32,355 nucleotides of DNA. Source: a virus. Positions 3,673-26,769 of the stretch are shown piece by piece. Where the stretch lies: positions 1 to 32,355 of the IMG/VR virus record IMGVR_UViG_3300042914_003035, one strand, 5' to 3'. The first letter of the stretch is position 1. Each line of letters starts with the position of its first letter. Under the pieces are notes generated by a model. That model was given only the letters and a program-made list of their open reading frames with translations. It ran no database searches and had not been told where the DNA came from. Made by a program: the position numbers and the translations under genes.

Positions 3673-3677
3673 ATTAC

Positions 3678-3706: not shown

Positions 3707-3736
3707 ATCACTGTGATGATTGATATGGAGATGGTG

Positions 3737-3925: not shown

Positions 3926-3927
3926 TT

Positions 3928-4280: not shown

Positions 4281-4281
4281 T

Positions 4282-5451: not shown

Positions 5452-5454
5452 TAC

Positions 5455-5483: not shown

Positions 5484-5512
5484 ATAAATGTGGTGATGAT
5501 ATGGAGGTTGAA

Positions 5513-5578: not shown

Positions 5579-5579
5579 A

Positions 5580-5831: not shown

Positions 5832-5843
5832 CAGGAGATTATT

Positions 5844-6041: not shown

Positions 6042-6268
6042 CATATGCAATTGGACAAAAATTTCAGAATACGGGTATGTTCCCTGAGGTGTACGTTCTA
6101 GCCCAGGTAGCATTCAAACAAGTCGGACTGGTGAGTATTGATTCTGGCAATCGTTGGTATGACCCTGTAAATGTCGTTGATGTAACGGAGATAACCGATA
6201 TTGAGTTTGAAGTTATCGCTGGTGATACACCCGAACAATTTGAGTTAATTACAAAGGAAACAAATTAA
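6038..6268 (+). CDS. small phage protein with YVLAQV...GNRW motif, 76 aa
   Basis: The sequence MTYAIGQKFQ, VYVLAQVAFKQVGLVSIDSGNRW fits a common T4-type phage small protein in which YxLAQV and GNRW are the constant elements. It is predicted beta-rich and cytosolic. No function has been assigned to the family as far as I know. It is coupled to the upstream gene by ATGA. Confidence 0.7.
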   Translation: MTYAIGQKFQNTGMFPEVYVLAQVAFKQVGLVSIDSGNRWYDPVNVVDVTEITDIEFEVIAGDTPEQFELITKETN

Positions 6269-6445
6269 ATGCAAACATATTACATTAAAGGAGAACGAAC
6301 CAGCGGTGAGGTGGAAACACTAGGTACCTACAATACTGAGGAAGAAGCCCTGGCCCAACTGGAAATTGAAAAGTCCAAACGAACCATTGATGGTGTATGT
6401 ACATGGACAATTTGGATTGAAAATGTAAAAGACGTCCTGAGTTAA
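6269..6445 (+). CDS. hypothetical protein, 58 aa
   Basis: ATG 6269 abuts the previous stop, and AAAGGA lies 14 nt upstream within that gene. The protein reads as strand-strand-helix-strand with YNTEEEALAQLEIEKSKR as the helix. The design is similar to the proteins at 5844, 6915 and 7290. No catalytic motif is seen. Confidence 0.6.
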   Translation: MQTYYIKGERTSGEVETLGTYNTEEEALAQLEIEKSKRTIDGVCTWTIWIENVKDVLS

Positions 6446-6448
6446 TCA

Positions 6449-6688
6449 ATGAGCCGTGATGTAATATACTGGCACCGCATGGAAAAGACGGACATACCAG
6501 ATGATCCGTATTGCCGAGTGCCATTTAACATGGACCGAGCTACCGAGATTTCCATGCAAATATTTAATGGTGGTACGGCTGCTGTGCAGGAAAGACTCCA
6601 GAAGGCTGTATCCACTCGTGGTTATCATATTGTAAACATAGACTGGATGCGAAAAGAGTTGCAATTGGTGCAACAAAAAAATACTTGA
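6449..6688 (+). CDS. hypothetical protein, 79 aa (paralogue of 7460-7699)
   Basis: The sequence aligns along its length with the protein at 7460-7699: VIYWHRM/ILYFNHM, YCRVPF/YKIPF, QERLQKA/WERMHIA, GYHIVNIDW/GFRLVSVRW. This suggests an internal duplication. The protein is mixed alpha-beta, of unknown function. Its last bases carry the -35 box of the following promoter (6685-6690). Confidence 0.65.
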   Translation: MSRDVIYWHRMEKTDIPDDPYCRVPFNMDRATEISMQIFNGGTAAVQERLQKAVSTRGYHIVNIDWMRKELQLVQQKNT

Positions 6689-6713
6689 CTTAAGTACCGA
6701 TTCCATCTATACT
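6685..6713 (+). promoter_or_regulatory. sigma70-type promoter
   Basis: TTGACT at 6685-6690, a 17-bp spacer containing ACCGATTCC, TATACT at 6708-6713. It overlaps the end of the upstream gene and drives the gene at 6748. Confidence 0.8.
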
Positions 6714-6747
6714 AGAACCATAGAGAAACGAACTGAAGGAGTGAATT

Positions 6748-6918
6748 ATGAAAGTAACAACAATTTCTGTGGTGGGTGGATGGCAAACCGCTGTGATTTT
6801 TGCAGATGGTACACAATCCCTGGTAGGTCCTGTATGCAATAAATGTTCCGACACCTGGGACTGGCAGCGAGCCAACCTTTTCAATGTCGCATCCGAATAT
6901 GTAATGGTGAAACTATGA
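6748..6918 (+). CDS. small CxxC protein, 56 aa
   Basis: ATG 6748 follows AAGGAG. The protein begins with strands (MKVTTISVVGGWQTAVIFADG) and has one CNKC pair around residue 31-34, which could bind metal or be redox-active but is too little to assign a family. It is the first gene after the promoter at 6685-6713 and overlaps the next gene by ATGA. Confidence 0.6.
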   Translation: MKVTTISVVGGWQTAVIFADGTQSLVGPVCNKCSDTWDWQRANLFNVASEYVMVKL

Positions 6919-7073
6919 ACAAAGTTTTTATAGTAGTAGAATGTGAAGCCTACGAGGGAGATACCGTTCTCCGTGTATTCTCGAAGTATAATGAGGCTAT
7001 AGCATACGGTGAGTCCCTGGTGTTTGACGGTACTATTACCGAGTATGATGTATATGAGCGTGAAGTTTACTGA
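6915..7073 (+). CDS. hypothetical protein, 52 aa
   Basis: ATG 6915 is in an ATGA overlap. The short beta-alpha-beta protein (KVFIVVECEAYEGD, KYNEAIAYGESLV, ITEYDVYEREVY) resembles other tiny strand-helix-strand proteins nearby. Probably soluble. Function unknown. Confidence 0.6.
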   Translation: MNKVFIVVECEAYEGDTVLRVFSKYNEAIAYGESLVFDGTITEYDVYEREVY

Positions 7074-7089
7074 ACTCTGAGGTGTACTA

Positions 7090-7260
7090 ATGAATGCATA
7101 TGAAATTCTCCGTGAAGCACAAAATTTCGTGCATCCCGATGATGTAGATTATTTCCGTCAATATTATACAATGAATCGCCAGTTTTATAATGTAAAAACT
7201 TCAGTGTATCTAACCCTAGACTATATGGATCTCCTAGACGATTTTCTAGAGTTAGTATAA
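7090..7260 (+). CDS. hypothetical protein, 56 aa
   Basis: ATG 7090 has GAGG about 11 nt upstream. It is a helical, tyrosine-rich acidic protein (DDVDYFRQYYTMNRQFYN and LDYMDLLDDFLELV). No motif known. It lies in a continuous run of small genes. Confidence 0.55.
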   Translation: MNAYEILREAQNFVHPDDVDYFRQYYTMNRQFYNVKTSVYLTLDYMDLLDDFLELV

Positions 7261-7289
7261 ATGACCATGAGCACCAGAAGGAGCAAAAA

Positions 7290-7460
7290 ATGGACAAGGC
7301 AATATATGTAATCGAGGGCGTCGGCGAGTATGGCCTAGACTTAGACCATAGCCCAGGCGTAGGTGGCTATTACGTGAAACTGTACGATGGCTCCTATGAT
7401 GCCTCAGGATTTGACACTGAAAAAGAAGCCCGAGAGGAACTAGAATATCTGGTATCATAA
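7290..7460 (+). CDS. hypothetical protein, 56 aa
   Basis: ATG 7290 has AAGGAG 7 nt upstream. It is an acidic strand-rich protein (AIYVIEGVGEYGLDL, YYVKLYDGSYDASGF) ending in a helix, DTEKEAREELEYL. It shares the EKEAREEL helix style with the proteins at 5844 and 6269. It is coupled to the next gene through TAATG. Confidence 0.6.
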   Translation: MDKAIYVIEGVGEYGLDLDHSPGVGGYYVKLYDGSYDASGFDTEKEAREELEYLVS

Positions 7461-7699
7461 TGAGTACCGAATTCAAGGACATTCTATACTTCAATCACAT
7501 GCTAGAGATGGCTGGCATTGACCGCATGTATAAGATACCGTTCACGACATCCAAACATTCCGATATGATTCAATATGCCACAGTAAACGGGCGAAGCCAG
7601 CTATGGGAACGGATGCACATAGCCTGCGCCAAACAAGGCTTTAGGCTAGTATCAGTCCGCTGGGAAGAAAATGTTGCAATAGTGCAGAAAATACCATAA
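7460..7699 (+). CDS. hypothetical protein, 79 aa (paralogue of 6449-6688)
   Basis: A diverged copy of the protein at 6449-6688 with identical length and matching hydrophobic pattern (ILYFNHML, MYKIPF, LWERMHIACAKQGFRLVSVRW). The copies flank a block of four other small genes, so this is not a simple tandem repeat. Function unknown. Confidence 0.65.
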   Translation: MSTEFKDILYFNHMLEMAGIDRMYKIPFTTSKHSDMIQYATVNGRSQLWERMHIACAKQGFRLVSVRWEENVAIVQKIP

Positions 7700-7794
7700 T
7701 GGCAATAAATCCAATACTATTGATGGTGATCCGCTGATAGTTTTTAGCTATTGCATTCGCACTAGGTCCAGGGATGCTATTTAGTCAACCCTCC
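7699..7794 (+). pseudogene. possible broken one-helix membrane gene
   Basis: ATG 7699, overlapping the previous stop, opens MAINPILLMVIR and then meets TGA TAG in tandem. The same frame continues as FLAIAFALGPGMLFSQPS and a final TGA. Joined, the two halves would give a 30-residue one-helix protein like others here. It is either a decayed gene, a 12-codon gene, or chance. Confidence 0.3.
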
Positions 7795-7889
7795 TGAGTA
7801 CCCGAATCTGCCCTCTATCGGCCACCGATCCGCACTGTTGCTCAAACGCAACGGGACCGGGCACCACTCCACAATCATTACCGCACCGC
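7795..7889 (+). other. intergenic stretch, hairpin only
   Basis: Between the broken micro-gene and the next promoter. It is richer in G+C than its surroundings and holds a 7-bp hairpin, 7835-7841 with 7848-7854 (GTTGC / GCAAC core, loop TCAAAC), but no T-run. It could be a weak terminator or transcript end. No coding frame is convincing. Confidence 0.3.
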
Positions 7890-7918
7890 TTGACAAAGGT
7901 ACCGATGCCCGTTATACT
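7890..7918 (+). promoter_or_regulatory. sigma70-type promoter
   Basis: TTGACA at 7890-7895, a 17-bp spacer with GTACCGATGCC, TATACT at 7913-7918. It drives the micro-protein at 7950. Confidence 0.85.
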
Positions 7919-7949
7919 GTAGTTAATGAGTGATTGATTGGAGTTTGAA

Positions 7950-8042
7950 ATGGCTTTGGAACTGATTGACTGGATTTTCATTATAGCAACACCGCTGGCT
8001 TGTGTGTATATTCTGTGGGATGCAGTAATGGATCGGAGTTAA
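7950..8042 (+). CDS. micro membrane protein, 30 aa
   Basis: ATG 7950 lies after TTGGAG in the promoter-linked leader. One membrane helix (LIDWIFIIATPLACVYILW) is followed by DAVMDRS. It is the first gene of its transcript with a good ribosome site. It is of the same class as the 21-29 aa membrane micro-proteins elsewhere in the window. Confidence 0.55.
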   Translation: MALELIDWIFIIATPLACVYILWDAVMDRS

Positions 8043-8045
8043 TAA

Positions 8046-8216
8046 ATGTATAACGTGCTATTTCCCTCCGGTCGTGTGCTAGAATTATGTTCCCTGGAGC
8101 TGGCAGAGATGTATTGCAAAGCTTATAATGGCTCACTTTTACCGAGCGTGACACTTGACACAGAGGCAGCACCTTGTTATAATGCTTCTGTGGTGAATGA
8201 TATGGAGGTTATATGA
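8046..8216 (+). CDS. hypothetical protein, 56 aa, overlapping a promoter
   Basis: ATG 8046 follows the previous stop by 3 nt without a clear ribosome site. The N-terminal part (MYNVLFPSGRVLELCSLELA) looks like a normal small protein. The last 20 or so codons are made of the promoter and leader cassette (8155-8216), so the C terminus may have been replaced when the cassette arrived. Function unknown. Confidence 0.5.
   Translation: MYNVLFPSGRVLELCSLELAEMYCKAYNGSLLPSVTLDTEAAPCYNASVVNDMEVI
8155..8183 (+). promoter_or_regulatory. sigma70-type promoter inside a coding frame
   Basis: TTGACA at 8155-8160, a 17-bp spacer, TATAAT at 8178-8183: a perfect consensus. It lies within the 3' end of the upstream frame. 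The leader GATATGGAGGTTAT precedes ATG 8213. Confidence 0.85.
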
Positions 8217-8371
8217 TTGTCCAAAAAGAAACACTGAACCGTATTGCTGAACTCCGTTACCTTGGCTATGGTATTCAGTCCATTGCTGCAATACTGAACC
8301 TTGCTGTGGCTGATGTAGCAGGCGCAATTAAGGCTTATAAGTTTATTTCTTGGTCCGAACGACCACTGTAA
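8213..8371 (+). CDS. HTH-like small protein, 52 aa
   Basis: ATG 8213 is preceded by GGAGG. The sequence RIAELRYLGYGIQSIAAILNL then VADVAGAIKAYKF has the helix-turn-helix spacing of sigma-region-4/resolvase-type motifs. It suggests a DNA-binding protein, as does the protein at 8703-8849. Basic regions beyond the HTH are short, so target and role are unknown. Confidence 0.6.
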   Translation: MIVQKETLNRIAELRYLGYGIQSIAAILNLAVADVAGAIKAYKFISWSERPL

Positions 8372-8381
8372 GGAGTATATA

Positions 8382-8585
8382 ATGAGAGAATCAATAGCAC
8401 AATTCAGCAAAGCAGAGTCCGCAGTGGCCGTCAATCAGGCCGTTCTGTGGCGCACTGTACCCGTGGAGACTATTAAGGCACGTAAGCGTAAGGTCAAGCG
8501 TGTAGCAGTGGCAAAGCAGTCCAGAGGCTATATTAAAGGCTCTGCTGGTTTTGCAGTAGGCTATCCACGAAAGGTTTTCATCTAA
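8382..8585 (+). CDS. basic hypothetical protein, 67 aa
   Basis: AAGGAG lies 6-11 nt before ATG 8382. The protein is strongly basic in the middle (IKARKRKVKRVAVAKQSRG) and ends GSAGFAVGYPRKVFI, similar to the end of the protein at 5580-5831. Nucleic-acid binding is plausible from charge alone. It is coupled by TAATG to the next gene. Confidence 0.65.
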   Translation: MRESIAQFSKAESAVAVNQAVLWRTVPVETIKARKRKVKRVAVAKQSRGYIKGSAGFAVGYPRKVFI

Positions 8586-8764
8586 TGCGTTTCACTCATG
8601 AGGAACTAGCCGCTGCTGTGGCTGAGTTTGAAGCAAAGGCGGCAGTCCGTGTGGCGCCTGGTTTTGGGCATAACAAGGACATTACAATCTACGGAGCAGA
8701 GAATGTCACAATTCAAAAGACTAGTGCAGGAGATTCTGGACCTAACGAGCCTGGGACTGAGTGA
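8585..8764 (+). CDS. hypothetical protein, 59 aa
   Basis: ATG 8585 overlaps the upstream stop. An alanine-rich helix (HEELAAAVAEFEAKAAVRV) is followed by a short strand region and a proline-glycine tail that overlaps the next gene by 62 nt in another frame. The overlap is long for this window, so the true end may be functional only up to about residue 40. Function unknown. Confidence 0.5.
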   Translation: MRFTHEELAAAVAEFEAKAAVRVAPGFGHNKDITIYGAENVTIQKTSAGDSGPNEPGTE

Positions 8765-8849
8765 GCTGGAAGTAGCCAATGCAGTAGGCGTTAGCCGTGG
8801 TGTAGTGGACTATGTGGTGGAGATGTACGGGTGTGGTACCATGGCATAG
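8703..8849 (+). CDS. HTH DNA-binding-like protein, 48 aa
   Basis: ATG 8703 (MSQFKRLVQEIL) is preferred over the in-frame ATG 8628, which would lie deeper in the upstream gene; GGAG in the sequence GGAGCAGAGA precedes it. Residues 17-40 (LGLSELEVANAVGVSRGVVD) are a textbook helix-turn-helix. It is probably a very small transcription or replication regulator. Confidence 0.6.
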   Translation: MSQFKRLVQEILDLTSLGLSELEVANAVGVSRGVVDYVVEMYGCGTMA

Positions 8850-15203: not shown

Positions 15204-15280
<77 letters not shown>

Positions 15281-15293
15281 GATAAAAAAATAC

Positions 15294-15322
15294 TTGACAG
15301 AGTTTTGAAATTAGATTAGAAT
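15294..15322 (+). promoter_or_regulatory. sigma70-type promoter, second in the tRNA array
   Basis: TTGACA at 15294-15299, a 17-bp spacer, TAGAAT at 15317-15322. It lies between tRNA-Pro and a 234-nt non-coding leader before tRNA-Glu. Confidence 0.8.
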
Positions 15323-15556
15323 GATTTCTGTTGAGTGAGTGAGAAAAAAAACGGAAGTGAGCGATCCGACTCTGAGAAGAGTTCAGCAAGGGTTGATGCG
15401 GTAGGGCAGCTTCGGCATCTGTAATAGCGATTCCTTGTTAGTTCTTAAATTTATTACAACACGACAACGCATCAGGGCTTGGCCCTCCTCTGCGACACAA
15501 AAGAAACGGCACACCAGGATTCGTTCCTTCTCTGTGCTATTGAATAGTATAACTAT
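15323..15556 (+). ncRNA. structured non-coding leader or small RNA
   Basis: The 234 nt between a promoter and tRNA-Glu have no credible coding frame. Nested pairings are visible: CAAGG 15387-15391 with CCTTG 15433-15437, enclosing GATGC 15395-15399 with GCATC 15415-15419. Next comes CGCA 15468-15471 with TGCG 15491-15494, enclosing AGGGC with GCCCT. It may be a stable RNA like the T4 RNAs C and D of the T4 tRNA cluster. Identity unknown. Confidence 0.45.
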
Positions 15557-15632
15557 GCACCCATCGTCTAGAGGCCTAGGACATTGCCCTTTCACGGCAG
15601 TAACACCGGTTCGAATCCGGTTGGGTGTGCCA
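15557..15632 (+). tRNA. tRNA-Glu(TTC)
   Basis: GCACCCA/TGGGTGT acceptor with G discriminator and CCA. The anticodon stem TTGCC/GGCAG carries loop CTTTCAC. T arm CCGG TTCGAAT CCGG. Confidence 0.93.
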
Positions 15633-15654
15633 AGTTTTTAATAGGAGACCTGTC

Positions 15655-15693
15655 ATGGATAGTGACAAGAGTGGTAAGATGAAGGGAGTATAG
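15655..15693 (+). CDS. possible 12-codon leader peptide with three Lys codons
   Basis: AGGAG at 15643-15647 is ideally spaced from ATG 15655. The frame reads MDSDKSGKMKGV and stops at 15691-15693 inside tRNA-Lys. Three of twelve codons are AAG, and the downstream RNA has competing hairpins. It may be a leader peptide, or chance. Confidence 0.35.
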   Translation: MDSDKSGKMKGV

Positions 15694-15759
15694 TCAAACG
15701 GTTAAGACAGCGGACTTTTAATCCGTCAGGTCAGGGTTCGAATCCCTGTGCTCCCACCA
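15684..15759 (+). tRNA. tRNA-Lys(TTT)
   Basis: GGGAGTA/TGCTCCC acceptor with A discriminator and CCA. The anticodon stem GCGGA/TCCGT has loop CTTTTAA. Its 3' ACCA also forms part of the inverted repeat at 15756-15775. Confidence 0.93.
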
Positions 15760-15901
15760 TATAAAAACACATTAGTTCTAAGGGTTGTTCCGAAGGTAAT
15801 TATCTTCCATGAAGTCCTAGTGTGTTTCTATATGGTAGCAGTGAAGATGTGGCCGAAACGTAAAATGAAGCCAAACCCCTGGCTGTTACCATGCTTTTTT
15901 A
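15756..15901 (+). ncRNA. competing-hairpin RNA element, attenuator-like
   Basis: Arm 15756-15775 pairs with 15817-15836 (20 positions: 18 Watson-Crick, one G-U, one A-C mismatch). ATGGTAGCAG at 15832-15841 can instead pair with CTGTTACCAT at 15883-15892, which is followed by GC and six T at 15895-15900. The two pairings share 15832-15836 and so exclude one another, as in attenuators. The first arm begins in the 3' end of tRNA-Lys. No coding frame is present. Confidence 0.5.
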
Positions 15902-15902
15902 T

Positions 15903-15980
15903 GGCACTTTAGCATAGTTGGCCTAATGCGCTGCCCTGTCACGGCAGAGATCACGGGTTCGAATCCCGTAAGTGTCGCCA
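15903..15980 (+). tRNA. tRNA-Asp(GTC)
   Basis: GGCACTT/AAGTGTC acceptor, G discriminator, CCA. The anticodon stem CTGCC/GGCAG has loop CTGTCAC. T arm CGGG TTCGAAT CCCG. Confidence 0.92.
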
Positions 15981-15987
15981 GAATTAT

Positions 15988-16063
15988 TGCTCAGTAGATC
16001 AGTCGGTAGATCAGCGGACTGTTAATCCGTGTGTCGTTGGTTCGAGCCCAACCTGAGCAGCCA
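15988..16063 (+). tRNA. tRNA-Asn(GTT)
   Basis: TGCTCAG/CTGAGCA acceptor, G discriminator, CCA. The anticodon stem GCGGA/TCCGT has loop CTGTTAA. T arm TTGG TTCGAGC CCAA. Confidence 0.92.
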
Positions 16064-16078
16064 GTTTTGTATAACTGT

Positions 16079-16154
16079 TGGGAGTTCGCCAAGTTGGTAA
16101 GGCATCGGATTTTGATTCCGACATGCACAGGTTCGAGTCCTGTACTCCCTGCCA
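16079..16154 (+). tRNA. tRNA-Gln(TTG)
   Basis: TGGGAGT/ACTCCCT acceptor with an unpaired 1-72 position, a weak end pair being usual for Gln tRNAs. G discriminator, CCA. The anticodon stem TCGGA/TCCGA has loop TTTTGAT. Confidence 0.9.
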
Positions 16155-16163
16155 GAATAATCT

Positions 16164-16245
16164 GGGTTGGATGCTCTAATGGTAGGGCAGCGGACTGTAA
16201 ATCCGTGGCTTCGGCAAGTAGGTTCGATCCCTACCCAACCCACCA
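16164..16245 (+). tRNA. tRNA-Tyr(GTA)
   Basis: GGGTTGG/CCAACCC acceptor, A discriminator, CCA. The anticodon stem GCGGA/TCCGT has loop CTGTAAA. The variable arm with GGCTTCGGC is long, as expected for a bacterial-type Tyr tRNA. Confidence 0.92.
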
Positions 16246-16253
16246 GTAACGAT

Positions 16254-16329
16254 GGTGTCTATAGTGTAGTGGTCTGCATAGGGTGCTGTGAACGCCTTGG
16301 TATGAGTTCGATCCTCATTAGACACCCCA
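16254..16329 (+). tRNA. tRNA-His(GTG)
   Basis: The acceptor has the extra G at -1 facing C73 that defines His tRNAs (GGTGTCTA / TAGACACC, then CCA). The anticodon stem GGGTG/CGCCT has loop CTGTGAA. Confidence 0.92.
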
Positions 16330-16504
16330 AATAACTTGAGTTGTGGCAAGTATAGTCCACAAACAGGAGTGTAACCTGATTCATACAAATACTAAGTATG
16401 AAACGTGAATGAGCCATCTTTTGACCGTGTTCTTTAGGCAGGAAACACATAAGAAAACGGCAGGCGTTAAACGTGATTACAATCGCCTAGGTAATCAAAG
16501 TATT
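16330..16504 (+). ncRNA. structured non-coding RNA between tRNA-His and tRNA-Arg
   Basis: Three hairpins follow one another: TTGTGG/CCACAA (16341-16346, 16357-16362), CAGG/CCTG (16364-16367, 16375-16378) and TTCATAC/GTATGAA (16380-16386, 16396-16402). Then AGGCG/CGCCT (16462-16466, 16484-16488) interleaves with TGATTAC/GTAATCA (16474-16480, 16491-16497), a pseudoknot or switch. No coding frame. Candidate stable phage RNA. Confidence 0.5.
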
Positions 16505-16579
16505 CGGTCTTTAGTAAAATGGATATTACGGTGGGCTACGGACCCGCAAGTGGGAGTTCGATTCTCTCAGGACCGGCCA
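16505..16579 (+). tRNA. tRNA-Arg(ACG)
   Basis: CGGTCTT/AGGACCG acceptor, G discriminator, CCA. The anticodon stem GTGGG/CCCGC has loop CTACGGA. Reading several CGN codons requires host TadA to convert A34 to inosine. Confidence 0.9.
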
Positions 16580-16585
16580 TATTAT

Positions 16586-16661
16586 GGGGTTGTAGCTCAG
16601 TTGGGAGAGCAATTGCTTTGCAAGCAAAAGGTCGTCGGTTCGATTCCGTCCAGCTCCACCA
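16586..16661 (+). tRNA. tRNA-Ala(TGC)
   Basis: GGGGTTG/CAGCTCC acceptor containing the G3-U70 pair that is the alanine identity element. A discriminator, CCA. Anticodon loop TTTGCAA. Confidence 0.93.
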
Positions 16662-16667
16662 GATTTT

Positions 16668-16741
16668 GCCCGTTTAGTTAAATGGTATAACAGTTGATTT
16701 GTAATCATCTATTGGCAGTTCGATTCTGTCAACGGGCACCA
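16668..16741 (+). tRNA. tRNA-Thr(TGT)
   Basis: GCCCGTT/AACGGGC acceptor, A discriminator, CCA. The anticodon stem GTTGA/TCATC has one T-T mismatch, with loop TTTGTAA. Compact 74-nt cloverleaf. Confidence 0.9.
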
Positions 16742-16748
16742 GTTTTAT

Positions 16749-16824
16749 CGCAGAGTATGGAAGTGGTCATCCGCTTGGTCTCATAAGCCGAGAATCGCAG
16801 GTTCGAATCCTGCCTCTGCAACCA
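16749..16824 (+). tRNA. tRNA-Met(CAT), initiator-like
   Basis: The acceptor CGCAGAG/CTCTGCA has a C1-A72 mismatch, the hallmark of bacterial initiator tRNA, followed by ACCA. Anticodon loop CTCATAA. Of the three G-C pairs diagnostic of initiators at 29-31/39-41, two are present and the third is T-G. The D stem has G11-C24, not A11-U24. Confidence 0.85.
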
Positions 16825-16838
16825 TTTACAGGTGACTT

Positions 16839-17309
16839 ATGTTCAAAAAAGAAATTGACTTGAATGAAGTGGCTGCATTTCTTGATACATGTGGTCCTGA
16901 TACAAAAGTTTATGTTGGAGCAGACTCAGAACGTTTTCAAATAAACGGTGAATGGTTTGCCGATTACATTTTAGCAGTTGTGATACATATTGATGGACGA
17001 CACGGTTGCAAAATATTCGGTGCAGTTCAACGTGAACGTGATTTTGAAGCAAAGAAAAATCGTCCACGTTTTCGTTTGATGAATGAAGTTTATAAAGTTT
17101 CAGAATTGTATTTGAAACTGTATGATGCAATACCACACGATATTCAGATTCATTTGGATATCAACCCAAGTGAAATGCATGGTAGTTCGTGTGTGGTAAA
17201 TGAAGCGATTGGTTATATCAAAGGTACATGTAATGTGATACCATTGATCAAACCAAAAGCATTTGCAGCATCATATGCGGCTGATCGTTTCAAAACTTTA
17301 GTAGCATAA
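16839..17309 (+). CDS. DUF458/YkuK-like RNase H-fold protein, 156 aa
   Basis: The core pattern VYVGADSERFQ, YILAVVIHIDG, LHLD-like IQIHLDINPSEMHGSS and a terminal KAFAASYAADRF fits the DUF458 (YkuK) family, predicted to have an RNase H-like fold with acidic metal ligands (the D in GADS and in HLDINP). Cellular role unknown, possibly nucleic-acid processing. It lies within the tRNA array, directly after the initiator-like tRNA and 1 nt before tRNA-Gly. AGGTG precedes ATG 16839. Confidence 0.75.
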   Translation: MFKKEIDLNEVAAFLDTCGPDTKVYVGADSERFQINGEWFADYILAVVIHIDGRHGCKIFGAVQRERDFEAKKNRPRFRLMNEVYKVSELYLKLYDAIPHDIQIHLDINPSEMHGSSCVVNEAIGYIKGTCNVIPLIKPKAFAASYAADRFKTLVA

Positions 17310-17310
17310 T

Positions 17311-17386
17311 GCGGGTATAATTCAGTTGGTAGAATGCTTCCTTGCCAAGGAAAATGTCGTCGGTTCGAGTCCGACTACCCGCTCCA
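17311..17386 (+). tRNA. tRNA-Gly(GCC)
   Basis: GCGGGTA/TACCCGC acceptor, T discriminator, CCA. The anticodon stem CTTCC/GGAAA has loop TTGCCAA. It starts one base after the upstream stop codon. Confidence 0.93.
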
Positions 17387-17390
17387 GTAT

Positions 17391-17464
17391 TACGGTGTGG
17401 CGTAATGGCAGCGCAGGAGTCTCCAAAACTCTTAGTGGGGGTTCGATTCCCTCCACCGTAGCCA
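17391..17464 (+). tRNA. tRNA-Trp(CCA)
   Basis: TACGGTG/CACCGTA acceptor, G discriminator, CCA. The anticodon stem GGAGT/ACTCT has loop CTCCAAA. Confidence 0.92.
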
Positions 17465-17489
17465 TAATAAAAACTTATAAAGGACTTTT

Positions 17490-17630
17490 ATGAAAGTGTA
17501 CATTTGCGAAGTGTGTGGTCATACACACGATGAATCTGTAGAAGGTAAACTGGAAGATTTGCCAGCATATGCGAATTGTCCAGAATGTGGCAGTGATGCC
17601 AGAGAAGTTTATAAAGAGGCGCAGTGGTAA
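17490..17630 (+). CDS. rubredoxin-like protein, 46 aa
   Basis: The small protein has two rubredoxin knuckles: YICEVCGH (Cys6, Cys9) and NCPECGSD (Cys30, Cys33), with a LPAYANCP bridge resembling the LPxxWxCP of rubredoxins. It is slightly shorter than classical rubredoxin (about 52 residues). It could bind one Fe or Zn. If it is an iron rubredoxin, it could donate electrons to the rubrerythrin at 20013-20444, which lacks its own rubredoxin domain. AAGGA at 17480-17484 precedes ATG 17490. A zinc-ribbon role is the alternative. Confidence 0.7.
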   Translation: MKVYICEVCGHTHDESVEGKLEDLPAYANCPECGSDAREVYKEAQW

Positions 17631-17638
17631 TAAAGATT

Positions 17639-17714
17639 GGTGCTTTAGCTGATGTGGTCATAGCGGTGGCCTGAAGAGCCATGGAAGTTAGTTCGATTCT
17701 AACAGGCACCACCA
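17639..17714 (+). tRNA. tRNA-Phe(GAA)
   Basis: GGTGCTT/AGGCACC acceptor, A discriminator, CCA. The anticodon stem GTGGC/GCCAT has loop CTGAAGA. Confidence 0.9.
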
Positions 17715-17715
17715 T

Positions 17716-17789
17716 TGTCCTGTAGTTAAATGGTATAACTGTCGATTGATAATCGACCATTACAAGTTCAATTCTTGTCGGGACAACCA
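17716..17789 (+). tRNA. tRNA-Ile(GAT)
   Basis: TGTCCTG/CGGGACA acceptor, A discriminator, CCA. A perfect anticodon stem GTCGA/TCGAC with loop TTGATAA. Confidence 0.92.
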
Positions 17790-17794
17790 GAATT

Positions 17795-17869
17795 GGTAAT
17801 GTAGCACAATGGTAGTGCAGCACCTTCATACGGTGTGTGTTGGGAGTTCGAGTCTCTCCATTACCACCA
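17795..17869 (+). tRNA. tRNA-Met(CAT), elongator or Ile2
   Basis: GGTAATG/CATTACC acceptor fully paired, A discriminator, CCA. The anticodon stem GCACC/GGTGT has loop TTCATAC. A CAT anticodon can also belong to Ile2 after lysidine modification, which sequence alone cannot settle. Confidence 0.88.
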
Positions 17870-17870
17870 T

Positions 17871-17946
17871 GCGCCGGTGACGGAACGGTATACGTGTTGG
17901 TCTTAGAAACCAAATTTTGGGAGTTCGACTCTCCCCTGGCGCACCA
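17871..17946 (+). tRNA. tRNA-Leu(TAG) with short variable arm
   Basis: GCGCCGG/CTGGCGC acceptor, A discriminator, CCA. The anticodon stem TTGGT/ACCAA has loop CTTAGAA. The variable region is only ATTTT, whereas bacterial Leu tRNAs normally carry a long paired arm. Confidence 0.88.
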
Positions 17947-17957
17947 AACACTCACCC

Positions 17958-17993
17958 TTGTATACGGTGTATAATAGGACAAGTAGTATACAA
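17958..17993 (+). repeat. 8-bp inverted repeat between tRNA-Leu and tRNA-Val
   Basis: TTGTATAC at 17958-17965 and GTATACAA at 17986-17993 form a perfect stem. CTCAC (17951) and GTGAG further out could extend it. Possibly an RNase processing hairpin. Confidence 0.45.
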
Positions 17994-18014
17994 ACGAATT
18001 GCGTGTGAGGCGAT

Positions 18015-18089
18015 GCATCGTTAGCTCAGTGGTAGAGTCCCTGCCTTACAAGCAGGTTGTCGTTGGTTCGAATCCAGCACGATGCACCA
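18015..18089 (+). tRNA. tRNA-Val(TAC)
   Basis: GCATCGT/ACGATGC acceptor, A discriminator, CCA. Anticodon stem CTGC/GCAG with loop CTTACAA. Confidence 0.93.
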
Positions 18090-18096
18090 GTATTAC

Positions 18097-18174
18097 GGTA
18101 AGGTGGCAGAGAGGTCCAATGCAAGGGTCTGCAAAACCCTAAAGCCGTCGGTTCAAATCCGACCCTTACCTCCA
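18097..18174 (+). tRNA. tRNA-Cys(GCA)
   Basis: GGTAAGG/CCTTACC acceptor, T discriminator, CCA. A perfect anticodon stem AGGGT/ACCCT with loop CTGCAAA. Confidence 0.92.
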
Positions 18175-18179
18175 AACGT

Positions 18180-18267
18180 GGAAGTGTGGATGAGTGGTTT
18201 AAATCAGCAGTCTTGAAAACTGCCGACTGTAAAAGGTCCGTGAGTTCGAATCTCACCGCTTCCGCCA
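18180..18267 (+). tRNA. tRNA-Ser(TGA)
   Basis: GGAAGTG/CGCTTCC acceptor, G discriminator, CCA. The anticodon stem GCAGT/ACTGC has loop CTTGAAA, with a long class II variable region. Confidence 0.92.
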
Positions 18268-18281
18268 AATAGGAGAAAAAA

Positions 18282-18443
18282 ATGTTGATACTTACGACAT
18301 TGCTAACAATGGTATTTTATTGGATATTGTTTGGTGTTGCTGTAACGGCATTTTTATTTTTGATGTATGGTATAGCATTAATCTCTGGAGTGTTGGCCGA
18401 GTTGGTCGAAGGCACTTTCCTGCTAAGAAAGCATACCTCATAA
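18282..18443 (+). CDS. membrane protein running into tRNA-Ser, 53 aa
   Basis: AGGAG at 18271-18275 precedes ATG 18282. The first 36 residues are hydrophobic (two helices, TLLTMVFYWILFGVAVTAFL and the following segment). The frame then continues into tRNA-Ser(GCT), which encodes its last 18 or so residues and the stop TAA at 18441-18443. tRNA processing would cut the message, so translation and maturation compete. It may be a truncated gene whose stop was supplied by the tRNA. Confidence 0.5.
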   Translation: MLILTTLLTMVFYWILFGVAVTAFLFLMYGIALISGVLAELVEGTFLLRKHTS

Positions 18444-18478
18444 GGGTATCATTGGTTCGAATCCAATACACTCCGCCA
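18387..18478 (+). tRNA. tRNA-Ser(GCT)
   Basis: GGAGTGT/ACACTCC acceptor, G discriminator, CCA. A perfect anticodon stem CTTTC/GAAAG with loop CTGCTAA, and a long class II variable arm. It overlaps the upstream membrane gene. Confidence 0.93.
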
Positions 18479-18479
18479 C

Positions 18480-18508
18480 TTGACAAAGTTTTTTGTTTGA
18501 CGTATAAT
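18480..18508 (+). promoter_or_regulatory. sigma70-type promoter
   Basis: TTGACA at 18480-18485, a 17-bp spacer, TATAAT at 18503-18508: a perfect consensus. It starts 2 nt after tRNA-Ser and drives the genes from 18533. Confidence 0.87.
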
Positions 18509-18532
18509 GTTTACTATTACTTGGAGAACGAA

Positions 18533-18682
18533 GTGAAAACAAAGACAAACAAATTAAACAAACCACGAAATTTTGTGGCAAAAGATTTGTTTACTCCGAA
18601 GTATCGTATGAAAGTAGAAGTAAATTCTTACAACCGTGCTTCCGAAAAACAAACTTTGCGAAAACAAAATGTCTATATTTAA
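18533..18682 (+). CDS. basic small protein with GTG start, 49 aa
   Basis: GTG 18533 is placed 7 nt after TTGGAG. The protein is very basic and asparagine-rich (KTKTNKLNKPRNFVAKDLF, then TPKYRMKVEVNSYNRASEKQ). This resembles short basic proteins common in T4-type phages. Nucleic-acid or ribosome binding is a guess from charge. It overlaps the next gene by 14 nt. Confidence 0.6.
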   Translation: MKTKTNKLNKPRNFVAKDLFTPKYRMKVEVNSYNRASEKQTLRKQNVYI

Positions 18683-19106
18683 GAAAAAAACTGAAGAAGC
18701 CGTCACACCTGCCATCTCTGGTAATGAAATGGAAGATTTTGACGGCTTTTATTTCGTTCCCGATAATGATGACTTTGATAACAATTACAAAATGATATTT
18801 TTCAACATGAAAGATGAGTATTCAAACTCAAAACCAGTTGAAAGTTCACATATGGGCTTGAAATATCATTTGTGTTTTTTCAAAACGGATGAGAATGGCG
18901 CACCTGTATTTGATGATGCATTTGAAGCGATACTTGTTGATCCTTTGGCATACATCAAAAATATGACGGGCACAGGTATCGGTGGTTGTGTACTGAAGAA
19001 AACTGAAAAGTCAGATGCATGGTGGACAGACTACTTGGATTATATTACAGGTGGTGAATTTAAGCAAAAAGTGAAAGAAGCATTTGGTTCTATTGCAAAC
19101 AATTGA
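18669..19106 (+). CDS. hypothetical protein, 145 aa
   Basis: The start is ATG 18669 (MSIFKKKTEEAV); ATG 18636 is an in-frame alternative and neither has a clear ribosome site. An acidic soluble protein with FYFVPDNDDFDNNYKMIFF, LKYHLCFFKTDENGAPVFD and a C-terminal WWTDYLDYITGGEFKQKVKEAF. No family recognised. It is followed by a GGAG site for the next gene. Confidence 0.65.
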   Translation: MSIFKKKTEEAVTPAISGNEMEDFDGFYFVPDNDDFDNNYKMIFFNMKDEYSNSKPVESSHMGLKYHLCFFKTDENGAPVFDDAFEAILVDPLAYIKNMTGTGIGGCVLKKTEKSDAWWTDYLDYITGGEFKQKVKEAFGSIANN

Positions 19107-19118
19107 TGGAGATTTATT

Positions 19119-19409
19119 ATGGAACATATATTTTCTGGTGACACTAAAGATGGAAAACATGGTCGTAAATGGTTACTCGGTTTGCTAGAAACTGAAATCG
19201 TTGAAATTGAGTTCACAAAAAAAGATGGTACCGATCGTGTAATGAAATGCACACTGCAAGAAGATTACTTGCCTGAATATGGAGTGATTGAGATTGACAA
19301 AGATCGTTGGAAGAAAGATTCTCTTGCAGTCTTTGACATTGAAAAAGAAGGTTGGCGTTCATTCCGTTGGGATTCTGTAAAAGCAGTACGCTTTACTCTT
19401 GGAGATTAA
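19119..19409 (+). CDS. SH3-fold protein (DUF2693-like), 96 aa
   Basis: GGAG precedes ATG 19119. The pattern VEIEFTKKDGTDRVMKCTLQEDYLP, then SLAVFDIEKEGWRSFRWDSV matches a small SH3-like beta-barrel family frequent in T4-type phages (DUF2693-like). It is inferred to bind nucleic acid or protein. The fold rests on remembered family resemblance. Confidence 0.7.
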   Translation: MEHIFSGDTKDGKHGRKWLLGLLETEIVEIEFTKKDGTDRVMKCTLQEDYLPEYGVIEIDKDRWKKDSLAVFDIEKEGWRSFRWDSVKAVRFTLGD

Positions 19410-19410
19410 T

Positions 19411-19701
19411 ATGCCCAAATATATCGTAGAACAAATTTCTGTTCACCGTAACGTTTATGTTGTAGAAGCAGAAAATCAAGATGAAGCAAAGAAAGTTGCA
19501 GCCGTTGCTGATGATAACTGGCAAGAATGGCTTGGTCAACTTGATGTTGATGTGAATGAGTATTCCGAAGAAAGAATTGCATACTTTAAACACAAAGATT
19601 ATTTCTGGGCAGGCACTTCATACAAAGACACTGATGGATATCTTGCATACATACATCCATCAGGTGAACACATTGAACGTAAAGAAATTGTTGTCAGATA
19701 A
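19411..19701 (+). CDS. hypothetical protein, 96 aa
   Basis: The start is ATG 19411 because TTGGAG lies at its upstream side; ATG 19399 is in frame but precedes that site. The protein reads as a beta-alpha domain (KYIVEQISVHRNVYVVEAEN, QDEAKKVAA), the shape of a small phage family starting MxxYxVxxxxxxxxxVxVEAEN. Function unknown. Confidence 0.65.
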   Translation: MPKYIVEQISVHRNVYVVEAENQDEAKKVAAVADDNWQEWLGQLDVDVNEYSEERIAYFKHKDYFWAGTSYKDTDGYLAYIHPSGEHIERKEIVVR

Positions 19702-19707
19702 ATCAAT

Positions 19708-19783
19708 GCGGGTGTAACTCAGTTGGTAGAGTGTTTGCCTTCCAAGCAAAATGTCGTCGGTTCGAGCCCGATCACCCGCTCCA
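19708..19783 (+). tRNA. tRNA-Gly(TCC)
   Basis: GCGGGTG/TCACCCGC ends with T discriminator and CCA. The anticodon stem TTTGC/GCAAA has loop CTTCCAA. It is the second Gly tRNA and the last of the array, separated from the others by four protein genes. Confidence 0.93.
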
Positions 19784-20012: not shown

Positions 20013-20444
20013 ATGAGTTTAAAAGGCACAAAAACCGCTGAGTGCTTAAAAGAGGCTTTTGCGGGTGAATCAATGGCAAATCGTCGTTATTTGTATTTCG
20101 CAAATCAGTGCGATATTTCTGGTGAGAATGAACTAGCAGCATTGTTCCGTTCTACAGCAGAGGGTGAAACTGGTCACGCACATGGTCATATGGAATATTT
20201 GATCGAAGGTGGTGCAGGTGAGCCTGGTACTGGTATGCCAGCAAAAACTGGTAAAGAGATGTTAGAAGCAGCAATTAGTGGCGAAACACACGAATACTCT
20301 GACATGTATCCTGGTATGGCAAAGATTGCACGTGAAGAGGGTTTTGATGAAGTCGCAGATTGGTTTGAAACTCTTGCGAAAGCAGAACGCTCACACGCCA
20401 ATCGTTATCAAAAAGCATTAGACAAACATCTTTCTGAACAATAA
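20013..20444 (+). CDS. rubrerythrin (erythrin domain only), 143 aa
   Basis: A ferritin-like four-helix di-iron protein. Metal ligands are in place: Glu19, ExxH at 52-55, Glu91, Glu94 and ExxH at 125-128. Key stretches are [28 protein letters not shown] and [11 protein letters not shown]. Rubrerythrins reduce hydrogen peroxide in the cytosol with electrons from rubredoxin. The C-terminal rubredoxin domain of classical members is absent, as in the short bacterial form. AGGAG precedes ATG 20013. It lies 10 nt before pqqA and probably shares its transcript. The sequence resembles proteobacterial homologues, hence likely acquired from a host. Confidence 0.88.
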
Positions 20445-20454
20445 GGAGATTCAA

Positions 20455-20529
20455 ATGGCTTGGACTACACCCGCAGCACAAGATATGCGTTTTGGTTTTG
20501 AAATCACAATGTATATTGCAAATCGTTAA
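20455..20529 (+). CDS. pqqA: PqqA, PQQ precursor peptide, 24 aa
   Basis: AAGGAG precedes ATG 20455 by 8 nt. The peptide has MAWTTPA, then MRFGFEITMYIANR at the end. This matches PqqA (usually 22-24 residues), whose conserved Glu and Tyr, here Glu16 and Tyr20 in E-x3-Y, are cross-linked by the radical-SAM enzyme PqqE to make pyrroloquinoline quinone. The start W-x-x-P and the ending YxxNR also fit proteobacterial PqqA. pqqB-E are absent, so host enzymes would be needed. It follows the rubrerythrin gene and ends just before a terminator. Confidence 0.85.
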   Translation: MAWTTPAAQDMRFGFEITMYIANR

Positions 20530-20532: not shown

Positions 20533-20558
20533 AAAAGCGGCTACCAAGCCGCTTTTTT
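20533..20558. terminator. Bidirectional Rho-independent terminator
   Basis: The stem AAAAGCGGCT (20533-20542) pairs with AGCCGCTTTT (20547-20556) around loop ACCA, with a T-run on + and a matching A-run on the other side. It ends the rubrerythrin-pqqA transcript and the converging minus-strand pair. Confidence 0.9.
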
Positions 20559-20726
20559 ATTCTTTAATACTTTTATTCTAAATTCAGAATCATTCGTCAT
20601 ATTTTTCAAAGCAGCATTTACTTGAACTGCTAATTTACAATCTTTGGTGACAAGAATTAGATTATTACCTTTGTTGGTGTAGATATAGTAAACATCTTCA
20701 TCTTCATCTTTTTCAACATACATCAT
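20541..20726 (-). CDS. hypothetical protein, 61 aa
   Basis: It starts at the complement of 20724-20726, overlapping the stop of the upstream minus-strand gene by ATGA, and ends inside the shared terminator. An acidic N terminus (MYVEKDEDEDVYYIYTNKG) is followed by a strand-helix (NLILVTKDCKLAVQVNAALK) and a basic C terminus. No family is recognised. It is likely co-transcribed with 20723-21496. Confidence 0.65.
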   Translation of the reverse strand: MMYVEKDEDEDVYYIYTNKGNNLILVTKDCKLAVQVNAALKNMTNDSEFRIKVLKNKKAAW

Positions 20727-23529: not shown

Positions 23530-23950
23530 GAAACTATACTCCGAAATATTTGAGGAGTTTGAAAAAGCAACAACCAAACAAGAACGAATAAACATTTTAC
23601 GCCGTGAAGGTGATGAACGTTTTCGTTTCTTTCTACAATTGGTGTTCAATCCTGCAATTGAGTTTGACATTGCACTGCCTGATAGATACAGGCCAGCAAA
23701 AGAACCTGCAGGATTGAACTATGCATATCTTGATACACAGATGCCAAAGATGTATCGGTTCATCAAGAATCATCCGATGCGTCCCGAAGGTTTTACCGCA
23801 GAAAAAACTACACAACAAATCTTAGTTATGGTAGAATCATTACACAAAGATGAGGCTGCTATTATACTTGATGTTCTGCAAAAAAGATTCAAAGTAAAAC
23901 ATTTAACTGCTAATTTAGTCAAAGAAGCATTTCCTGATTTAGTGATATGA
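23519..23950 (+). CDS. conserved T4-type phage protein (possibly DUF6433), 143 aa
   Basis: ATG 23519 (MSSEKLYSEIFEEF) overlaps the RNase H stop. The pattern KATTKQERINILRREGDERFRFFLQLVFNPAIEFD, a short proline-rich stretch and the C-terminal LTANLVKEAFPDLV belong to a family next to rnh in many T4-type phages, which I think is DUF6433. It is helical and cytosolic. A partner role for RNase H is inference from position. ATGA overlap with the next gene. Confidence 0.75.
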   Translation: MSSEKLYSEIFEEFEKATTKQERINILRREGDERFRFFLQLVFNPAIEFDIALPDRYRPAKEPAGLNYAYLDTQMPKMYRFIKNHPMRPEGFTAEKTTQQILVMVESLHKDEAAIILDVLQKRFKVKHLTANLVKEAFPDLVI

Positions 23951-24456
23951 GAATAGTTGTCGTATCTGGTGGATTCGACCCCATCCATTCTGGTCATCTT
24001 GCGATGCTGCGTGAAGCGGCAGGTATGGGTGACAAACTTATCGTTGGTGTAAACTCAGACATTTGGCTAACACGCAAGAAAGGCAAACCGTTCATGAACA
24101 TATATGAACGCAAGGCCATTCTACAAGCAATTCGTTGGGTAGATGAAGTGTGGGAGTTTGACGATTCTGACGGTACAGCATGTGAATTGCTTGAACGAGT
24201 GATGTCACATTATACGACACGAATATATGAAAGTAATGAATTTGTCTTTGCGAATGGCGGAGACAGAAATGCAGAAAACAATGCTGAAGCAAATGTACCA
24301 GGTTGGGAATTTGCGTATGGTGTTGGTGGCAGTGATAAAAGAAATTCATCATCTTGGTTATTAAGGAGCTGGAATGAAAGTAGCGGTAGTGACACCGACC
24401 ATAGGTTCAGATTATTTGGCGAAGTGCGTAGAGTCAATTCAGAATCAGACTTATGA
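23947..24456 (+). CDS. HxGH nucleotidyltransferase (RfaE2/TagD-like), 169 aa
   Basis: The cytidylyltransferase-type fold shows VVVSGGFDPIHSGHL with HSGH at residues 14-17, LIVGVNSDIWL and a late SSSWLL that replaces the usual ISSS-I motif. Such enzymes activate phosphorylated sugars or alcohols as CDP or ADP derivatives for surface glycans. The last 27 residues overlap the next gene in another frame by 83 nt and may be an extension after loss of a stop codon. Confidence 0.78.
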   Translation: MRIVVVSGGFDPIHSGHLAMLREAAGMGDKLIVGVNSDIWLTRKKGKPFMNIYERKAILQAIRWVDEVWEFDDSDGTACELLERVMSHYTTRIYESNEFVFANGGDRNAENNAEANVPGWEFAYGVGGSDKRNSSSWLLRSWNESSGSDTDHRFRLFGEVRRVNSESDL

Positions 24457-25132
24457 AAATCTAACACATTATATTTTTGTTGATGGTGACGAATATACAG
24501 ACAAAGTTATAGAAGTCACAAAAAATATTTCTGATAATAAAATAAAAGGAGTATTTCTTGAAGAGAATGTTGGTAAAGGTTGGTACGGGCATCGTGTATA
24601 TGCTGCATGTGGCTTTCTTGTCAATGCTGATGCTGTATGTTACCTTGACGAAGATAATTGGTTTGAGCCTAATCACATTGAGAAACTTGTGGAGAGAATC
24701 CAAAAGGGCGTTGATTGGGCATACTCACTGAGAAAAGTCGTTGACAAAGAAGGTAATTATGTTTGCGATGATAACTGTGAATCATTAGGCCAATGGCCAA
24801 TCTATTTCAATAAAGACGCATATCATATTGATACTTCATCATATATGGTGAAGATTGACATTGCACGTAAACTTGGCGCAGCATGGTATGGTCAATGGGG
24901 TGCAGATAGACAATTCTTCAATGCACTGAAACAATACTTTCCTAATTTTTCTTGTTCAAAACAATATTCACTGAACTATCGTTTGGATGCAAATCCTAAT
25001 TCCGTAAATGCAGAGTTCTTTGAAAAAGGTAATGCAGAAAATGCCAAACAATATCCAGACGGCTTTCCTTGGCAGAAGCAATACTCGGAAGAGTATGTTG
25101 TTGGTCCTGGTATTACTATCGTGAGTGGATAA
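24374..25132 (+). CDS. family 2 glycosyltransferase, 252 aa
   Basis: AAGGAG precedes ATG 24374. The GT-A start VAVVTPTIGSDYLAKCVESIQNQTYENL and the metal-binding LDEDNWFEP (D92, D94) with W-x-GADRQFF are typical of GT2 enzymes. It would transfer a sugar from a nucleotide donor to an acceptor such as LPS, phage protein or modified DNA. Donor and acceptor are unknown. It sits with activating and epimerising enzymes. It ends in TAATG with the DUF2061 gene. Confidence 0.82.
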   Translation: MKVAVVTPTIGSDYLAKCVESIQNQTYENLTHYIFVDGDEYTDKVIEVTKNISDNKIKGVFLEENVGKGWYGHRVYAACGFLVNADAVCYLDEDNWFEPNHIEKLVERIQKGVDWAYSLRKVVDKEGNYVCDDNCESLGQWPIYFNKDAYHIDTSSYMVKIDIARKLGAAWYGQWGADRQFFNALKQYFPNFSCSKQYSLNYRLDANPNSVNAEFFEKGNAENAKQYPDGFPWQKQYSEEYVVGPGITIVSG

Positions 25133-25332
25133 TGACAGAAACACATAAGAGAACGATTGTACGTGCAATCAGTTGGCGCATCGTAGCAACACTTGTAACC
25201 GCAGCATTTACAGGATTATCTGGTGCAATTATTATCAACATATGGATGACTATTGCACATTACATTCATGAGAGAGCATGGTTGAAATTGGATTGGGGTA
25301 AAATAAATGAAAATAGAGAACACAGCGATTGA
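25132..25332 (+). CDS. DUF2061 membrane protein, 66 aa
   Basis: The opening THKRTIVRAISWRIVATLVTAAFTG and the later MTIAHYIHERAWLKLDWG fit the DUF2061 family: two membrane helices flanked by KR-x-x-x-R and H-E-R-x-W motifs. In bacteria it is often found beside sulphate or sugar activation genes. Its place inside the glycan cluster matches that tendency. Function unknown. Confidence 0.8.
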   Translation: MTETHKRTIVRAISWRIVATLVTAAFTGLSGAIIINIWMTIAHYIHERAWLKLDWGKINENREHSD

Positions 25333-25801
25333 AGGTTTAAAAATCGTTAAGCCGGAGTCACATGAAGATTTTCGTGGCACGAATTTTGAGAGTTACAATA
25401 AAAAATATTATGACATTGGGTTTGATATTGATTTTGTTGTAGATAGTATCTCAACATCACGTAAGCATGTTCTACGTGGTATTCATGGTGATCACAGAAC
25501 AACAAAACTTGTTTCGTGTTTGTATGGCACCATATACATGGTTGTACTTGATTTGAGACAAGACTCAAAAACTTATGGTATGTGGCAATCGTTTACACTA
25601 TCAGATAGAAATAAACATCAATTATTGATACCACCAGGCTGTGGCAATGCACACTTGGTAATGTCTGATGAATGTGTATTCAGTTACAAACTTGATCAAT
25701 ACTATGATCGTGAATCACAGTTCACAATCAAGTGGAATGATCCGATGTATGCAATTCCATGGCCAATTAAAAATCCTATTTTGTCTGAAAGAGATAGATG
25801 A
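25307..25801 (+). CDS. RmlC-like dTDP-sugar 3,5-epimerase, 164 aa
   Basis: The cupin fold contains VLRGIHGD at 55-62 (His60 base position), LLIPPGCGNAHLV at 107-118 and FSYKLDQYYD with Tyr127 or Tyr132 in the region of the catalytic tyrosine. RmlC enzymes epimerise 4-keto-6-deoxy sugars for rhamnose-type donors. It starts inside the DUF2061 gene. Substrate uncertain. Confidence 0.82.
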   Translation: MKIENTAIEGLKIVKPESHEDFRGTNFESYNKKYYDIGFDIDFVVDSISTSRKHVLRGIHGDHRTTKLVSCLYGTIYMVVLDLRQDSKTYGMWQSFTLSDRNKHQLLIPPGCGNAHLVMSDECVFSYKLDQYYDRESQFTIKWNDPMYAIPWPIKNPILSERDR

Positions 25802-26769
25802 GAACAGCATTTGTAACAGGCGGTGCAGGTTATCTTGGATCACACTTAGCAAAAGCACTTAAACAAGCGGGTTATTATACCTTCTGTTTTGATTTGATGC
25901 TTCCAGAAAATGAAAAGTATTGGGACAATTATACAGTTGGTGATGTCCGAAATTTAGACGATTTGTATGAAGCATTTGAACTTCAAAGAATTAATGGAAT
26001 AAAGTCTGATGTGGTGTTTCATCTTGCGGGTCTAATTGAAGTTGGTGAATCTGTTCACAAACCAGAAAAATATTGGCAAGTAAACGTAGGTGGTACTTGC
26101 AATCTACTTAATGTAATGAGGGAACTTGATGTTAGGAATATTGTTTATTCTTCTACTGCCGGTTTATATCGTTCTACTGGCACGGACCTCTCCGAAAAAG
26201 ATCAAATAGCAGAGAACAATCCGTATGCAAACAGTAAGTATGCTGCGGAATGTGCAATTCGTAATTCAACATTGAATTATATTATCTTTAGATTCTTCAA
26301 TCTTGCTGGTGCTGATCCTGATGGTGAGATGGGTGAATGTCATGAGCCAGAATCACACTTGATTCCGCTGATGTTTGAAAATCTAAATAACTTTGTTATC
26401 AATGGTGATGGCTACAACACGATTGATGGTACATGCGTTCGTGATTATGTGCATGTATCTGATGTTGCAGATGCACACATACTAGCCGACAACTATCTAC
26501 AAACAAAATTACAGAATGAACCTAGACTATTCAATCTAGGTACAGGAAAAGGTCACACAATTCTACAAGTGATTGACACTGCTGAAAAAGAATTGGACAT
26601 CAAAGTCAACTATTCGTTTGGTGCAAGAAGAGAGGGTGATCCTCCACGACTTGTTGCTATTCCAGACTTGGCCAAACGCTATCTAAATTTCAAACCTAAA
26701 CATAATCTGAAGTCTATTTTGAGAACTGCGTATAATTGGTATGAGCACAGACACAGAAATTCCATTTGA
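25798..26769 (+). CDS. NAD-dependent sugar-nucleotide epimerase (GalE-like), 323 aa
   Basis: An extended SDR enzyme with the NAD motif GGAGYLGSH at 8-16, SSTAGLY at 118-124 and catalytic Tyr143/Lys147 in YANSK. The later FRFFNLAGADPDGEMGE and VRDYVHVSDVADAH are typical of GalE. It likely interconverts UDP-glucose and UDP-galactose or related sugars at C4. Cytosolic. It overlaps RmlC by ATGA and the ClpP gene by 29 nt. Confidence 0.85.
   Translation: MRTAFVTGGAGYLGSHLAKALKQAGYYTFCFDLMLPENEKYWDNYTVGDVRNLDDLYEAFELQRINGIKSDVVFHLAGLIEVGESVHKPEKYWQVNVGGTCNLLNVMRELDVRNIVYSSTAGLYRSTGTDLSEKDQIAENNPYANSKYAAECAIRNSTLNYIIFRFFNLAGADPDGEMGECHEPESHLIPLMFENLNNFVINGDGYNTIDGTCVRDYVHVSDVADAHILADNYLQTKLQNEPRLFNLGTGKGHTILQVIDTAEKELDIKVNYSFGARREGDPPRLVAIPDLAKRYLNFKPKHNLKSILRTAYNWYEHRHRNSI

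Follow-up and report, generated by a model that had tools for sequence, protein, structure and literature searches.

Why would a T4-like phage carry a gene of only 24 codons for a peptide resembling PqqA, the precursor of the cofactor PQQ? The answer preferred here, with a probability of approximately 0.77, is that phage pqqA is an auxiliary metabolic gene sustaining the PQQ supply of the host during infection; this functional reading is drawn from sequence analysis.

The gene lies in a freshwater virus record of 32,355 bp, analysed at its full length and called the window below. The window contains T4-type genes, including RNase H (46% identity to Methylophilales phage Melnitz, 49% to cyanophage S-CAM3), an exonuclease and a prohead-protease-like protein, together with 23 tRNA genes. 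The first-pass annotation took pqqA to be phage-borne unless the DNA proved to be a bacterial chromosome; the genes just listed and the virus record itself place it in a real phage genome, not in host contamination. The tRNA genes cover most amino acids and occupy a 4.6-kb stretch (15204-19783) just upstream of the rubrerythrin-pqqA unit. Sugar-nucleotide genes are found beside T4-type replication genes (23947-26769); they encode heptose adenylyltransferase-like and glycosyltransferase-like proteins, dTDP-4-dehydrorhamnose 3,5-epimerase and a nucleotide-sugar epimerase.

The pqqA locus of the window has the following features:

20013-20444, plus strand: rubrerythrin gene, 143 amino acids (PF02915, 90.2 bits), directly upstream of pqqA, with its stop codon 10 nt before it
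20443-20449, plus strand: ribosome-binding site AAGGAGA, 5 nt before the ATG of pqqA, overlapping the rubrerythrin stop codon
20455-20529, plus strand: pqqA, 24 codons, ATG start and TAA stop, product MAWTTPAAQDMRFGFEITMYIANR with Glu16 and Tyr20 at the cross-linked positions (TIGR02107, PF08042, ORF list)
20533-20560, plus strand: intrinsic terminator, a 10-bp hairpin with a U-run (-14.4 kcal/mol, z -5.45), directly 3' of the pqqA stop codon
20541-20726, minus strand: convergent gene of 61 amino acids, the conserved right flank of carriers and empty sites (tblastn to L304-L341, L309-L311, L328)

The alignment to PqqA profiles proposed in the first-pass annotation gave 39.1 bits with the equivalog TIGR02107 (E 4.7e-10, cut-off 20) and 38.8 bits with PF08042 (E 8.4e-10, cut-off 21.1), so that both curated cut-offs are exceeded. 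The translation has E16 and Y20 in E-x3-Y, the two residues from which PQQ is built; the joining of the PqqA glutamate and tyrosine by PqqE is established (PMC9851590). A degenerate DNA pattern for the PqqA core has a single match in the window and none in 100 dinucleotide-preserving shuffles. Given the profile scores, the two residues and the single core match, the ORF is, as judged from its sequence, a true PqqA, and a chance resemblance is excluded. The short frame, its strong ribosome site and its PqqA pattern were thus correctly recognised at first sight. No match to the peptide was found among PDB chains. The product agrees with the bacterial PqqA family in length, in the W-x2-P motif, in the R-x-G-x-E-x-T-x-Y core and in the cross-linked positions. 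However, unlike the gene in bacterial pqq operons, pqqA of the window stands alone in a virus, in one unit with rubrerythrin and with no pqqB-E nearby.

Judged by their arrangement, rubrerythrin, pqqA and the strong terminator form one unit. The rubrerythrin scores 119.8 bits with the model NF045767, under its cut-off of 200. The gene order of the window (rubrerythrin, pqqA, terminator, convergent gene) recurs in relatives (L304, L319-L323, L327, L341). In other close relatives both flanking genes are kept and pqqA is absent: in L309, L310 and L311 the window hairpin (AAAAGCGGCTACCAAGCCGCTTTT) directly follows the rubrerythrin stop codon, and in L328 a variant of this hairpin does. As these empty sites retain the same rubrerythrin and terminator, comparison of the loci identifies pqqA as an optional cassette inserted between the two, and one that is dispensable. 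In the rubrerythrin tree the carriers are interrupted by empty sites at two separate points, and thus pqqA was probably gained or lost more than once in the window family. The T4 late promoter TATAAATA was not found in the window, and a sigma-70 promoter scan of the window performed no better than shuffles.

The proposed search of other phages and viral contigs yielded full-length pqqA in at least 120 IMG/VR contigs, identified by a scan with a degenerate DNA pattern, and in nine isolate records. Since the pattern fixed Glu and Tyr, the invariance of these residues in the first viral set is circular and was not counted; a profile constructed only from bacterial PqqA sequences was used instead. 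All of the 150 viral copies examined (pattern matches, rubrerythrin-selected loci and isolates) start with ATG, and 143 are preceded by a motif resembling a ribosome site. Among 50,697 deposited phage records, pqqA was found in Melnitz (four records), P19250A, Venkman, MEP301, MEP401 and MEP402, all of them phages of Methylophilales, and in one metagenomic relative. The two remaining matches, both named 'Acinetobacter phage MD-2021a', were set aside as probable bacterial DNA. The one that was opened (L005, CAKLQF020000010.1) contains a full pqqABCDE operon and the polyphosphate kinase gene ppk, and is therefore probably mislabelled. Some members of Klebsiella and Pseudomonas make PQQ; no match was observed in phages named after either genus among the same records. 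A Methylorubrum-type PqqA query produced only weak Melnitz matches in phages.

In the cultured methylophages the gene is either unannotated or hidden under an annotated antisense ORF, as in two of the records:

L002 (Melnitz-1), 3967-4062, minus strand: annotated hypothetical ORF antisense over the real pqqA
L004 (MW202481), 2067-2195, minus strand: annotated hypothetical ORF antisense over the real pqqA

In the publications describing Melnitz and MEP401, pqqA goes unmentioned. This bears out the initial remark that genes of this length escape annotation.

The isolates form at least three unrelated groups: Melnitz, T4-like as the window; P19250A, Venkman, MEP301 and ctXG6705; and MEP401 and MEP402 (Zobellviridae). 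Apart from short matches fitting PqqA itself, no shared proteins were observed between the groups in the flanks examined. Grouping used thresholds of 2-4 shared proteins, because single linkage by shared genes lumped nearly all contigs together. The groups comprise the methylophages that surfaced among the matches; MEP431-434 and Venkman EXVC038S, listed in the taxonomy, are not among these and may lie outside the collection searched. Like the window, the cultured methylophages each have one pqqA, standing alone and preceded by a ribosome site, but as a set they represent different phage lineages and peptide types.

The distribution bears on the role of the neighbouring gene. Rubrerythrin handles peroxide and adjoins pqqA in the window family, and PQQ made from phage PqqA might act mainly with it in redox protection, and not for dehydrogenases. 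However, rubrerythrin is also found where pqqA is lacking, an adjoining rubrerythrin is absent from most pqqA phages (e.g. P19250A, Venkman, MEP301, MEP402), and in the phage collection rubrerythrin was found in one pelagiphage and in no methylophage. We consider this the least probable of the explanations discussed here.

Four genomes of 1.3-1.4 Mb that encode HPS, a ribulose-monophosphate enzyme, contain three copies of pqqA apiece, and seven are present in a relative of 2.4 Mb; the small genomes are probably streamlined Methylophilaceae. Some PqqA peptides are identical between phages and these genomes. Members of Methylophilaceae are reported to have 3-12 copies of pqqA, with the other pqq genes typically present as a single set (PMC4109929), as expected if the peptide is a consumable input. 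Thus hosts and phages both multiply the precursor gene only. The difference is that the Methylophilaceae copies are chromosomal and reside in cells that also hold pqqBCDE. In an OM43 isolate, the xoxF methanol dehydrogenase mRNA is the most abundant transcript (PMC5120137).

For the window itself the host signals are of several kinds. The PqqA core is identical at 20 of 22 positions to Comamonadaceae and Oxalobacteraceae records and shares 16 of 22 with the streamlined methylotroph type. For the tRNA-Pro of the window, the best match is by a narrow margin to the 1.3-Mb HPS-positive genomes (93%, with many others at 92%). Nucleotide comparison with 300 order-level genomes gave no matches beyond tRNA, rubrerythrin and a few genes at low identity.

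The many stand-alone host copies could be captured easily, and pqqA is present in some and absent from other close relatives, as might be expected of functionless fragments carried along by the phages. The coding sequences argue against this. The pN/pS ratio is 0.22 across 134 distinct viral sequences, with mainly synonymous variation; it is 0.10 in the methylophage-like group and 0.21 in 29 window-like sequences, falling to 0.135 in close pairs of the latter (0.08-0.135 over close pairs of viral pqqA). At the DNA level, the core peptide WTTPAATEMRFGFEVTMYVMNK is represented by 17 different sequences. With the bacterial-only profile, neither viral copies lacking Glu or Tyr nor decayed copies were found. 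These patterns indicate that viral pqqA is maintained under purifying selection. The genes moreover have ribosome sites of their own, the cassette is precisely joined to a terminator, and the gene recurs in at least three unrelated isolate lineages. A functionless passenger thus seems very unlikely, if slightly less so than the other two alternatives, and we return to a maintained metabolic function.

No viral locus was found to provide the enzymes that act on the peptide. None of pqqB-E was found beside the 201 viral pqqA loci, the window included, and none of the 49 long viral records contains PqqE scoring over the cut-off; 36 of these 49 have exactly one pqqA. One candidate near pqqA, in the record G317, was rejected as PqqE (25.5 bits against a cut-off of 381):

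L420 (G317:C1:74000-86500), 3202-4311, minus strand: radical-SAM protein of 369 amino acids, approximately 350 nt downstream of the phage pqqA

The models nearest to it are TrsS-like and tetraether-synthase-like, and it scores far under their cut-offs.

One of the 49 long records, a 72-kb T4-like record (G342), contains both pqqA and a PQQ methanol dehydrogenase (TIGR03075, 608 bits, cut-off 480). It also contains a formate dehydrogenase (TIGR01591, 885 bits, cut-off 666), a ribonucleotide reductase and GroEL:

L421 (G342:C1:30000-44000), 3990-5864 and 5944-8784: PQQ methanol dehydrogenase and formate dehydrogenase alpha subunit, adjacent and complete, about 6-8 kb from pqqA

A single phage thus encodes two oxidative steps of methanol metabolism. 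G342 resembles the Lake Baikal populations VP_139 and VP_266, from which a 2020 study reported methanol dehydrogenase and PqqA (PMC7678222).

A substrate-like peptide delivered without its enzymes could also compete with the host peptide. Phage PqqA would then occupy PqqD and PqqE of the host and lower or divert PQQ synthesis, for instance stopping periplasmic oxidation or a PQQ-linked defence; in one study, a PqqA-annotated peptide family is co-expressed with defence systems (PMC11118758). However, the phage peptides keep Glu, Tyr and the whole core, many are identical to peptides of the probable hosts, and some phages pair pqqA with a methanol dehydrogenase that itself requires PQQ. Such a decoy is, in our estimate, improbable, ranking between the passenger and the redox explanations. 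All three fit less well than a supply function with the intact active residues, the selection and the co-carriage of methanol dehydrogenase.

The supply function may be pictured as follows. During infection the phage would express PqqA, probably on one transcript with rubrerythrin. Host PqqD would present the phage peptide, and the host radical-SAM enzyme PqqE would join Glu16 to Tyr20, provided that both accept it. A protease would then trim the cross-linked peptide, and PqqB and PqqC of the host would complete PQQ. In this scheme one PqqA peptide is spent per PQQ and the pqq enzymes are reusable, so that the phage would need to bring only the consumable part. PQQ-dependent dehydrogenases, such as methanol dehydrogenase in methylotroph hosts, would stay charged while host gene expression falls. 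We infer that PqqA becomes limiting during infection and that the phage benefits from its supply; engineering reports on which pqq gene is limiting are mixed. Of the initial proposal that the phage boosts or redirects host PQQ supply, boosting is the best-supported mechanism as far as the sequences suggest, and no support for redirection was observed here.

Phage pqqA is not new in itself. The first-pass annotation knew of no described case, but one is contained in a Lake Baikal T4-like population published in 2020 (PMC7678222), and a reservoir study of 2026 lists virus-encoded pqqA (PMC13188868). VP_266 is, like the window, a T4-like virus with a PqqA gene, for which the same role was proposed; its predicted host belongs to Methylophilaceae. 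The difference is that this metagenomic virus also has methanol dehydrogenase, whereas the window family pairs pqqA with rubrerythrin. In the literature searched we did not find descriptions of pqqA in every methylophage group surfacing here, spanning at least three unrelated lineages, or of the empty-site cassette with rubrerythrin.

A wider generalisation is offered tentatively, as we place it somewhat below an even chance: pqqA may be a near-universal, repeatedly acquired gene of methylotroph phages, overlooked because of its length, with unrelated viruses converging on the consumable precursor only. Were this the case, the amount of PqqA available would be limiting when phages infect the abundant methanol oxidisers of fresh and coastal water. 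Published virus-host pairs exist for several of these phages: Venkman and Melnitz on H5P1, MEP301 on FZCC2181, and MEP401 and MEP402 on FZCC0133. Genes of 20-25 codons merit inclusion in catalogues of auxiliary metabolic genes. If the mechanism holds, methylotroph phages control a cofactor simply by providing its only expendable component, an economical solution missed by standard gene calling, and viral infection would be linked to the oxidation of methanol in lakes and coastal seas.
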